64,000 nucleotides of DNA from an uncultured Tateyamaria sp. (lineage in GTDB: Bacteria; Pseudomonadota; Alphaproteobacteria; Rhodobacterales; Rhodobacteraceae): the NCBI RefSeq assembly GCF_947503465.1, contig NZ_CANNDN010000001.1, positions 1,054,001 through 1,118,000 of the forward strand. The letters are read 5' to 3'. Position 1 is the stretch's first letter; each line of letters starts with the position of its first letter. Below the pieces are notes generated by a model. The model did not search any database. It was not told the origin of the DNA and saw only the letters and a list, made by a program, of their open reading frames with translations. A program made the translations under genes and the position numbers. Positions 60,734 through 63,910 of this stretch are shown one piece after another.

Positions 60734-63700
60734 ATGGCACTGGGAAAATTCAACGCAAAAGAGGCCGAGGCCCGCATCTATGCCGACTGGGACGCGGCGG
60801 GCTGTTTCGCGGCAGGCGCAAACGCGTCACGCGATGACACCTATTGCGTGATGATCCCACCCCCCAATGTCACGGGCGTCCTGCACATGGGCCACGCCTT
60901 CAACAACACGTTGCAGGACATCCTGACGCGCTGGCACCGCATGCGCGGCTTCGACACGCTTTGGCAGCCGGGCACCGACCACGCGGGCATCGCCACGCAA
61001 ATGGTGGTCGAACGGCGTCTGGCCGAAACCCAGCAACCCACCCGCACCAAACTGGGGCGCGAGGCGTTCACCCGGAAAATCTGGGACTGGAAGGCCGAGA
61101 GCGGCGGCACCATCCGCGACCAGCTCAAGCGCCTCGGCGCCTCCTGCGATTGGTCGCGCGAGGCGTTCACCATGTCCGGCGCCCCCGGCGCACCTGCGGG
61201 CGAAGAGGGCAACTTCCACGACGCCGTGATCAAGGTGTTTGTCGAGATGTACAATCAGGGCCTGATCTATCGCGGCAAGCGACTGGTCAACTGGGACCCG
61301 CATTTCGAGACGGCGATTTCCGACCTCGAAGTCGAAAACATCGAAGTGCCCGGCCACATGTGGCACTTCAAATACCCGCTCGCAGGGGGCGAAACCTACA
61401 CCTATGTCGAAAAGGACGAAGACGGAAACGTCATCCTGACCGAGGAACGCGACTACATCTCCATCGCCACCACCCGGCCTGAGACCATGCTGGGCGACGG
61501 CGCCGTCGCCGTTCACCCATCGGACGAACGCTATGCGCCAATTGTCGGAAAACTCTGCGAAATCCCCGTCGGACCAAAGGAACACCGCCGCCTGATCCCG
61601 ATCATCACGGACGAGTACCCCGACCCAGACTTCGGCTCGGGCGCGGTCAAGATCACCGGGGCACACGACTTCAACGACTATCAGGTCGCCAAACGCGGCG
61701 GCATCCCGATGTACAACCTGATGGACACAAAGGCGAACATGCGGTCCGACGGGCGACCTTATGCCGAGGAAGCCGCCACTGCCCAGGCCATCGCGAACGG
61801 CGAACAGAGCTTCGACGAGGCCATGATCGCCGCCATGAACCTTGTTCCCGACGCCTACCGCGGCCTCACCCGCGAAGAGGCCCGCGCGCAAGTGGTCGCC
61901 GACATCACCGCCGAAGGCAACGCGGTCATGGTGGCACCTCCCCCCCCCGCATCTGACGCGCAAACACCCGACGACAGCGCCACCCCCCCCTCCCAAAGGA
62001 GGGGGGCCGGGGGGGAGGCCGACCTCATCCCATACGTCGAAAACAAACCCATCATGCAGCCCTTCGGCGACCGCTCCAAGGTCGTGATCGAGCCCCTGCT
62101 CACCGACCAATGGTTCGTGGACACCGACAAAATCGTCGGCCCCGCGCTGGAGGCTGTGAAGAATGGCGACGTCAAAATCCTGCCCGAAAGCGGCGAAAAG
62201 GTCTATTTCCACTGGCTCGAAAACATCGAGCCCTGGTGCATTTCGCGCCAACTCTGGTGGGGGCACCAGATCCCGGTTTGGTACGCTATGGACCCAGAAG
62301 CTGGGCAAGACCTAAAGTTTACCACATTCTGTGCATCAGACTTTGAAATCGCAAAAAAGGATGCCTTCTTACATTACAGCAGTAAGTTCCCAGACGCTAA
62401 CGTCTCCATTGAAGAGATGTTTGACGACGTTACCGATGCATGGCCTGAGTCCGAAGAAGACTACGCTGAATACAATGAGTTTGCCGAACAACACGGTTTA
62501 ACCAAACGATACAAAACGCAAAAGTTGACGGGGAGCAGAGCCAGCAGGTGGCGGGTTACAAATGACAAGATAACCGGCCAACAAACGCTGACTTTTTGGC
62601 TTAGACGCGACCCCGACGTCCTCGACACCTGGTTCTCCTCCGGCCTCTGGCCCATCGGCACCCTCGGCTGGCCCGAGAACACCGAGGAACTGCAAAAATA
62701 CTTCCCCACCTCCGACCTCATCACTGGCCAGGACATCCTGTTCTTCTGGGTCGCCCGCATGATGATGATGCAACTGGCGGTGACAGACAAAATCCCCTTC
62801 GACACCGTCTACCTCCACGGGCTCGTGCGCGACGCCAAGGGCAAGAAGATGTCGAAATCCACCGGCAACGTCATCGACCCGCTCGACCTGATCGACGAAT
62901 ACGGCGCCGACGCGCTCCGCTTCGCCTCCGCCGCGATGGCCTCGCTTGGCGGCACGCTCAAACTCGACACCCAGCGCATCGCAGGCTACCGCAACTTCGG
63001 CACCAAGCTCTGGAATGCTGCCAGCTACGGCGAGATGCGCGGCACCTTTGACGTGCCGCACACCGCCGACATCCCCGACACCAACCACCCGCTCAACGCC
63101 TGGATCAAAGGTGAAGTCGCCAAGACCCGCGAAACCGTCGACCAAGCGCTGAACGACTACCGCTTCAACGACGCGGCATCGGCCCTCTACGCCTTCACCT
63201 GGAATACGTTCTGCGACTGGTATCTCGAATTCACCAAACCCATCTTCGACGAAGGCACGCCCGAAGAGATCGCAGAAACCAAAGCCACCTACGCCTGGGC
63301 ACTCGACCAATGCCTGATCCTGCTGCACCCGATCATGCCCTTCATCACCGAAGAACTGTGGGGCCAAAAACAGCGCCCCAAACGCCTGATCCACGCCGAC
63401 TGGCCCACCTACACAACCGATCTGGTGGACGCAGAGGCCGACGCGGAACTCAATTGGGTGATCAAGCTGATCGAAGCCATCCGCTCCGCCCGCGCCCAGA
63501 TGCACGTCCCCGCAGGCGCCTACGTCCCCTGCGTCGTCAAAGGGTTCGAACCTGCGGCACGCGCGGCCTACGACCGCAACAAGGCGCTCATCCACCGCTT
63601 CGCCCGACTGGAATCGCTCACGGAGGTCAACGACTTCCCCAAAGGCACCGTCGCACTTGCCATCTCCGGCGGCACGTTCGGCCTGCCGCTTGCAGACGTG

Positions 63701-63910
63701 ATCGACGTCACCGAAGAAATCGCCCGTCTCGAAAAAACCTTGGGCAAACTCGCCAAGGAACTCGGCGGCCTGCGCGGACGGCTCAAGAACCCCAAATTCG
63801 CACAAAGCGCCCCGCCAGAAGTTGTCGAAGAAACCAAAGCCAACCTGGCTTTGCGCGAAGACGAAGAAAGCAAACTCCAGGAAGCGCTCACCCGGCTCAA
63901 AGAACTCTGA
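60734..63910 (+). CDS. valS: Valine-tRNA ligase with two insertions
   Basis: A 1058-residue synthetase, longer than the usual 880-950. HIGH-type HMGH is at residues 51-54, the CP1 editing domain follows, and KMSKS is intact in KGKKMSKSTGNVIDP. The C-terminal coiled-coil arm is present (EEIARLEKTLGKLAKELGGL). Two stretches stand out. Residues about 401-429 form a Pro/Gly-rich insert encoded by a G/C palindrome. Residues about 518-627, between WWGHQIPVWY and DVLDTWFSS, are AT-rich and use rare codons. Both insertions keep frame, so the protein is presumably functional. Confidence 0.96.
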   Translation: MALGKFNAKEAEARIYADWDAAGCFAAGANASRDDTYCVMIPPPNVTGVLHMGHAFNNTLQDILTRWHRMRGFDTLWQPGTDHAGIATQMVVERRLAETQQPTRTKLGREAFTRKIWDWKAESGGTIRDQLKRLGASCDWSREAFTMSGAPGAPAGEEGNFHDAVIKVFVEMYNQGLIYRGKRLVNWDPHFETAISDLEVENIEVPGHMWHFKYPLAGGETYTYVEKDEDGNVILTEERDYISIATTRPETMLGDGAVAVHPSDERYAPIVGKLCEIPVGPKEHRRLIPIITDEYPDPDFGSGAVKITGAHDFNDYQVAKRGGIPMYNLMDTKANMRSDGRPYAEEAATAQAIANGEQSFDEAMIAAMNLVPDAYRGLTREEARAQVVADITAEGNAVMVAPPPPASDAQTPDDSATPPSQRRGAGGEADLIPYVENKPIMQPFGDRSKVVIEPLLTDQWFVDTDKIVGPALEAVKNGDVKILPESGEKVYFHWLENIEPWCISRQLWWGHQIPVWYAMDPEAGQDLKFTTFCASDFEIAKKDAFLHYSSKFPDANVSIEEMFDDVTDAWPESEEDYAEYNEFAEQHGLTKRYKTQKLTGSRASRWRVTNDKITGQQTLTFWLRRDPDVLDTWFSSGLWPIGTLGWPENTEELQKYFPTSDLITGQDILFFWVARMMMMQLAVTDKIPFDTVYLHGLVRDAKGKKMSKSTGNVIDPLDLIDEYGADALRFASAAMASLGGTLKLDTQRIAGYRNFGTKLWNAASYGEMRGTFDVPHTADIPDTNHPLNAWIKGEVAKTRETVDQALNDYRFNDAASALYAFTWNTFCDWYLEFTKPIFDEGTPEEIAETKATYAWALDQCLILLHPIMPFITEELWGQKQRPKRLIHADWPTYTTDLVDAEADAELNWVIKLIEAIRSARAQMHVPAGAYVPCVVKGFEPAARAAYDRNKALIHRFARLESLTEVNDFPKGTVALAISGGTFGLPLADVIDVTEEIARLEKTLGKLAKELGGLRGRLKNPKFAQSAPPEVVEETKANLALREDEESKLQEALTRLKEL
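61985..62006 (+). repeat. Palindromic coding repeat inside valS
   Basis: CCCCCCTCC-CAAA-GGAGGGGGG, a 9-bp-arm hairpin, followed by a second G-rich arm (GGGGGGGAGG, 62009-62018) that could pair with the same C-run. Translated it adds a PPSQRRGAGGEA stretch to ValRS. Its shape is like dispersed palindromic elements of other alphaproteobacteria, but copies elsewhere in this genome cannot be checked from the window. Confidence 0.6.

Follow-up and report, generated by a model that had tools for sequence, protein, structure and literature searches.

Background

Aminoacyl-tRNA synthetases (aaRS) are expected to evolve slowly. The target domains of HsdS in type I restriction, surface antigens and phage receptors are horizontally exchanged specificity regions of a kind that resembles the segment of the valyl-tRNA synthetase (ValRS) gene valS described here in having conserved flanks, a replaceable variable cassette and alleles common to several species, but the valS segment lies in a cytoplasmic, essential housekeeping enzyme and has no known recognition role. 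Segmentally variable genes are defined by a variable stretch of 70 or more residues among well-conserved regions (Zheng, Roberts and Kasif 2004, PMC387263); that paper proposes a binding role as likely for the variable regions and discusses aaRS, with ProRS as an example, and a term search of its main text returned no ValRS, valyl, isoleucyl or leucyl. What valS has in common with such genes is the length of its variable region and the conserved sequence around it, any binding by the segment being putative. Unlike the segmentally variable genes, valS varies between congeners, its variable region is flanked by catalytic blocks, and related alleles occur across genera. The segment is a variant of this known pattern, and a search limited to the open full-text literature found no earlier account of the segment. 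One of the proteins made by phage T4, which infects E. coli, binds the ValRS of its host (PMC8076793) and is a precedent for a phage-encoded binder of this enzyme.

The segment in the window

The window is the whole 64-kb stretch of uncultured Tateyamaria DNA analysed here, and the features of its valS gene are collected in Table 1. The valS product passes the curated equivalog cut-off of NF004349, valine--tRNA ligase (1158.7 vs 704 bits). The preliminary description had reported an AT-rich, rare-codon insertion of about 110 residues between WWGHQIPVWY and DVLDTWFSS, and such an in-frame segment is real (residues 518-627). Its GC content is 0.476, whereas the adjoining 900 bp have 0.631 on one side and 0.618 on the other. 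A scan of the 64 kb in 330-bp windows with 10-bp steps singled out as low only two, 62271 and 62281, both overlapping the segment, which is the lowest-GC 330-bp stretch in the window. The GC content at third codon positions (GC3) is 0.52 in the segment and 0.81 and 0.85 beside it. The rare codons are also borne out: the 110 codons include TTA twice, CTA once, ATA once and AGA twice, none of which occurs in the other 948 codons of the gene, while AGG is found once in the segment and twice in the remaining 948. The target of a diversity-generating retroelement would have a template repeat close to the variable region, together with a reverse transcriptase; the repeats around the segment (61900-62900) amount to one 12-nt direct pair, with no inverted repeat. 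What did not hold for this family was the premise that the connection at this site is usually short, since a form of 28-33 residues accounts for 29 of 219 distinct segments, some of them from outgroups.

Table 1. Features of valS and of its variable segment, in coordinates of the window
Feature	Position	Strand	Basis
valS, valyl-tRNA synthetase, 1058 aa + stop	60734..63910	+	translation (1058 codons = 60734-63907); NCBIfam NF004349
second, milder length-variable site, residues 400-432	61931..62029	+	gap profile; lengths and sequences in relatives
conserved block PWCISRQLWWGHQIPVWY, upstream edge of segment	62231..62284	+	mostly invariant alignment columns; class A GC3 falls at end of block
hypervariable segment, class A allele, residues 518-627	62285..62614	+	110 in-frame codons; codon 518 begins at 62285
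shared core of segment, residues 529-561	62318..62416	+	AlphaFold2 model; FCAxxxxEA consensus of 89 class A segments
allele-specific C-terminal part of segment, residues 562-627	62417..62614	+	model confidence low over much of length
conserved block DVLDTWFSS, downstream edge of segment	62615..62641	+	invariant alignment columns

Forms of the segment among relatives

Relatives were sampled from the window's genus (20 genomes), a second genus (22 genomes), the genus of Phaeobacter italicus, named genomes and a search across the family. In that search 389 of 395 genomes matched the conserved block on the upstream side of the segment, and 90 of the 389 were read. The sample comprises one genome per species, and variation was compared between species. 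The 219 distinct segments obtained are a non-random set, in which 80 loci are the best 80 of 589 and a further 30 and 60 loci come from the top of a similarity ranking; in one batch, 24 loci were duplicates and seven (L024, L071, L127, L131, L139, L141 and L142) had no complete segment. In genus g11 the membership of L105 was confirmed, and the placement of L060 is a guess.

Every complete ValRS gene read from the family has some form of the segment at this position. Classes were assigned by pattern, class A being the remainder after the patterns of the other classes, and by this assignment the 219 segments comprise 101 of class A (54-124 residues), 73 of class B (about 105), 29 of a form called min (28-33), 11 of class C (74-75) and five of a 51-residue Rhizobiales form, with B and C as stable forms. 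The min form (like DEDGNQYCAATEAEAQAMAG...RDP), which is found in outgroups and in some Rhodobacterales, is probably ancestral. Most forms keep a core of the type (F/Y/H)CA...EA. Class A, to which the window's allele belongs, shows a loose cysteine pattern for this core in 94 of 101 rows and an R/Q-D ending in 100 of 101, and its members have little in common except the FCA-x4-EA core and the terminal RDP. Class labels on a tree of the flanks (202 tips, 260 residues) change 69 times, compared with 83-98 times in 50 shuffles, so that class is partly inherited, yet with frequent turnover.

The window's genus takes in Tateyamaria omphalii and T. pelophila, as judged from identical segments (L019 = L037 and L007 = L032). 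All 20 of its genomes carry valS, with a segment of 72-110 residues in each. The match to the window's ValRS is split into two pieces in 13 of these 20 genomes, and the split point lies at or inside residues 511-624 in 12 of the 13, the exception, G019, having the gene on two contigs.

Two side observations concern the classes. Class B segments (for example L048:6534-6848) carry an EF-hand-like loop, DDEGDGxLDxVE, in 59 of 71 cases, compared with 0 of 94 in class A; Pfam EF-hand models give weak matches to class B, with EF-hand_6 found in 4 of 37 at an E of 0.013 at best. In the family-wide search, genomes with the min form have a smaller mean size (3.39 Mb, n=17) than those with class A (4.01 Mb, n=31; Mann-Whitney p 0.0017, ignoring relatedness).

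Hypervariability and composition of class A

Grouping at 40% global identity splits class A, with its 101 segments, into 80 families, of which 68 have a single member; 5023 of the 5050 pairs lie below 0.40 identity, with 27 above. The window's genus has 18 class A segments in 12 families, and the seven genomes of the genus of Phaeobacter italicus have seven class A segments in six families, L311 carrying the same segment as L096. In the second genus, ten class A segments and L031 are all of different families, and three B-like segments and one min segment occur as well.

The scale of this divergence can be judged against the synonymous distance (dS) of the flanks, in counts for which the pairs are non-independent and the flanks were compared ungapped, and before which L241 was moved by hand from class A to class B. 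At a flank dS of 0.2-0.4, only 1 of 40 class A pairs is related (at least 40% identity), the median segment identity being 0.23, where a shuffled null has a mean of 0.19 and a 99th percentile of 0.277; at 0.4-0.6, none of 102 is related. The corresponding control pairs are related in 5 of 5 cases for class B (median 0.90), 4 of 4 for class C (0.87) and 1 of 1 for min at the lower distance, and in 106 of 111, 5 of 8 and 1 of 1 at the higher. Ungapped flanks gave a nonsynonymous distance (dN) of 0.5-0.8 in some pairs (L004/L011, L109 and L310 pairs), for which gapped values were used. The ten pairs among L307, L308, L309, L311 and L312 (genus of Phaeobacter italicus) combine flank dS values of 0.22-0.35 with segment identities of 0.18-0.33. 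Between the window's valS and nine congeners with a flank dS below 0.6 (0.32-0.50), 57-80 segment positions could be aligned with 8-16 identities, dN being 1.04-1.47 in the segment vs 0.033-0.061 in the flanks; the window's segment has no confident alignment to those of its congeners.

A variability profile of 97 sequences locates the variable region at residues 520-620. The comparable stretch of IleRS, from the SRQRAWG block to the DVWFDS stretch, served as a control and is 65 residues long in all 20 genomes of the window's genus, with a median identity of 0.92 and a minimum of 0.71 over 190 pairs. In the 400 kb around valS, comparison of the window's genome with congener G003 gave 144 ortholog pairs for 329 ORFs, and among the 138 testable pairs valS has the most divergent 60-column stretch with well-conserved sequence on its flanks, at 13% identity; only one more pair has a stretch under 35%, at 28%, and it is followed by one at 48%. 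The ORF at 28% (g0_215234, G000:C1 near 1129 kb) encodes a 297-residue protein starting MSDPMTNTEVEDVLASIRRLVSDDN, which we take to be possibly a disordered protein of the pole-organising type.

The low GC3 of the window's segment is general in class A, where GC3 is 0.569 vs 0.827 in the 80 codons on each side and the segment is lower in 92 of 93 rows (a set that still includes L241). The shift is found at both edges, GC3 dropping at the first codons of the segment and rising after the last. Class B has 0.772 vs 0.851 beside it. Values of 0.634 and 0.435 at the first and second codon positions of class A (46 rows) are coding-like. Class A GC3 tracks that of the host with a slope of 0.91, from which it follows that the donors are compositionally related and that the donor pool probably consists of other Rhodobacterales; the low GC3 might in part represent weak codon selection.

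Probable exchange of alleles between genera

Despite the overall diversity, some class A families recur in distant backgrounds. One family is present in three genera, in L018 (window's genus), L309 (genus of Phaeobacter italicus) and L315 (another genus), with 43-51% identity over about 100 residues; the segments of L308 (genus of Phaeobacter italicus) and L045 (Octadecabacter) are 46% identical; those of L109, L200 and L201 are 59-66% identical; and L004 and L011 have related alleles despite a flank dN of 0.231. Such families are rare: a profile built from L018/L309/L315 finds a match in 1 of 394 genomes. The L308/L045 profile matched in 3 of 394, two of these matches spanning little beyond the core, and since all three fail to join the family at 40% identity they are not counted as the same allele. 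All four profile matches lie within open frames of 1017-1140 codons that have the valS blocks. The converse is also found: L096 and L197 have 4 differences in 240 bp upstream, and L122 and L130 have 3 differences in 240 bp downstream, yet the segments of each pair are of different families. By sequence comparison, related alleles are thus present in distant backgrounds and unrelated ones in close, nearly identical backgrounds, as an exchanged allelic cassette would be, and replacement of the segment as a unit is well supported.

Within families, the alleles are under purifying selection. The values of dN and dS are 0.061 and 1.18 for L020/L023, 0.104 and 0.92 for L021/L022, 0.114 and 0.83 for L188/L226, and 0.060 and 0.19 for L015/L017, so that dN/dS is below 1 in each of these named pairs, which alone are cited from a listing that put L241 and the Rhizobiales rows under class A. 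The segment is nonetheless less constrained than its flanks in L015/L017, where dN/dS is about 0.32 vs 0.05 (flank dN 0.019, dS 0.37). The low ratios within families, together with the recurrence of families across genera, argue for folded domains swapped by recombination and against drifting loops.

For L096/L310, dS is 0.30 in the segment vs 0.84 and 0.71 in the flanks; raw DNA identity is alike in the segment and the flanks, with no edge of a transferred tract to be seen, and the case for transfer in this pair therefore rests on dS. Just downstream of the segment, at residues 626-659, the two hypervariable genera show a dip in synonymous distance, which falls to 0.72 and 0.59 of the mean for the gene. 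The same ratio is 0.86 in Leisingera and relatives, 0.93 for the set L020-L023, 1.10 in Ruegeria (class B), 1.12 in Salipiger and relatives (class C) and 1.28 in Paracoccus. This dip is suggestive, in groups that are small and with a dip at residues 694-727 in other groups too.

Searches and structural models

Among 394 genomes drawn from the family, two of them of the window's genus, the window's segment matched only its own genome. It gave nothing at E values up to 1 in Pfam and NCBIfam, a best E of 0.1 against phages and a best E of 0.7 against plasmids. Matches of 89 class A segments to six Pfam and three PHROG families, each in a single member and with E values of 0.0019-0.049, are taken as chance. 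An origin from another protein, a phage or a plasmid was therefore set aside, the Pfam, NCBIfam, PHROG, phage, plasmid and genome searches having yielded no source outside ValRS. A scan of the viral_contigs set for close relatives returned no ValRS. Nor was any allele-linked gene evident beside valS in the unannotated ORF lists of the window's genome and three congeners, and neither these lists nor the sequence searches produced an inhibitor or partner of the segment. A self-resistance aaRS paralog (alt_ValS or MupA type), which would be a second, divergent synthetase gene next to the housekeeping one, was rejected as well, the window's genome (G000) having a single valS match, which scores 277.9 bits for alt_ValS against a cut-off of 900.

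An AlphaFold2 model of the whole enzyme, built with 40 sequences, is of moderate quality (mean pLDDT 76.7, pTM 0.64). It predicts a core of a strand (529-533), a helix (537-551) and a strand (556-561), with block means of pLDDT of 84-92 for residues 531-560; confidence is low for residues 561-610, and the catalytic blocks too are poorly modelled in places. The best PDB match by both sequence and fold is the ValRS of T. thermophilus (1gax/1ivs/1iyw, 1gax being a complex with tRNA), in which chain residues 423-444 align opposite query residues 524-621. The same enzyme thus has a short stretch, presumably a zinc-binding ribbon, where the window's ValRS has a domain of 110 residues. A class B segment modelled alone reached a mean pLDDT of 81.7, and its fold had no known match in the PDB (best E 2.5).

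Explanations for the variability

The explanation that we tentatively favour, at a probability a little short of even, is diversifying selection on a presumed surface domain of ValRS, which would probably be escaping a ValRS-binding protein of phages or competitors. On this reading, the short connection between WWGHxIPVWY and DVLDTWFSS has become, in Rhodobacterales, the site of a small alpha/beta domain with a common strand-helix core, and in the hypervariable class this domain is replaced whole. A new allele could be brought in by homologous recombination within the flanks, which are highly conserved, while the catalytic enzyme stays intact, and the gene transfer agents known from this order are a plausible vehicle. 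Diversifying or negative-frequency-dependent selection would favour rarity, and the presumably exposed domain would be bound by the selecting agent, perhaps a protein or some other inhibitor made by phages, plasmids or competing bacteria. Rare alleles, conservation within families, kinship across genera and the lack of an evident linked partner would together make up the pattern of escape from recognition. The bolder form of this idea, in which undescribed but widespread protein inhibitors attack the ValRS of Rhodobacterales and the segment acts as an immune-like escape domain whose rare alleles (80 families among 101) circulate between genera, is possible but distinctly doubtful.

Neutral turnover of a tolerated surface loop, in which indels and recombination replace the segment without selection for difference, might instead be proposed; the position accepts 28 to 124 residues, residues 400-432 form another indel site, codon adaptation in the segment is low, and within the same pairs constraint is weaker in the segment than in the flanks. 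We consider it improbable, though deserving of weight, because neutral point change alone should not erase homology at a flank dS of 0.2-0.4, so that whole replacement would be needed, and unselected replacement should often import a congener's allele, yet the alleles differ while the flanks stay close. Classes B, C and min, which occupy this site as well, are moreover stable at like distances, and dN/dS is about 0.05-0.32 within clear class A families. That the alleles resemble constrained domains would also suit co-adaptation with an internal partner, such as a tRNA or another protein, that varies between species. Such a partner would need equal variability and mobility, and none is evident beside valS in the unannotated ORFs of four genomes; the B, C and min forms manage without it, and IleRS shows nothing similar, which makes this reading quite unlikely. 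Known resistance to aaRS inhibitors arises by active-site changes or through a second gene. These routes differ from what is seen here, where valS is single in the genome, and the swapping of 70-110 residues would better suit a protein-binding surface, so that escape from a small molecule, whether inhibitor or antibiotic, is, if anything, still less likely, although natural products that target aaRS exist (to go by their titles, structures include LeuRS with an agrocin 84 moiety and a mupirocin-resistant IleRS).

A single acquisition of foreign DNA in this lineage, which the preliminary description had suggested alongside recombination with a distant valS, can be given hardly any credence. It would agree with the match to only one genome among 394 and with the lowest GC in the window, but relatives have a segment at the homologous position with a shared core, 20 of 20 genomes of the genus have one there, low GC3 is general in class A (92 of 93 rows), and the searches described above found no source outside ValRS. 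What stands of that suggestion is that the segment's DNA has a history of its own and sits where an essential enzyme tolerates it, and the window's segment is best accounted for by recombination with other valS genes. The same segment was not seen in most relatives; the site is old and the sequence within it is not.

An aaRS domain that cannot be recognised from one congener to the next, yet has relatives in other genera, is a sign of selective conflict over translation inside the cell. A ValRS-binding protein is predicted to exist among the phages or the competitors of these bacteria, which are abundant in the sea. In this group, valS is a poor phylogenetic marker.

Repeat-like inserts

The second indel site of ValRS ranges from 13 to 47 residues in 60 of the 158 rows. 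In the window's valS it contains a GC-rich palindrome-like stretch, CCCTCCCAAAGGAGGGG, which is read in frame and occurs once in the window, and other repeat-like inserts are found there in L041, L054, L059 and L069. A class A segment, L016:1393-1644, carries the repeat-like insert REPLPSAASGGWGDGP, which suggests that mobile palindromic elements may enter the segment too.
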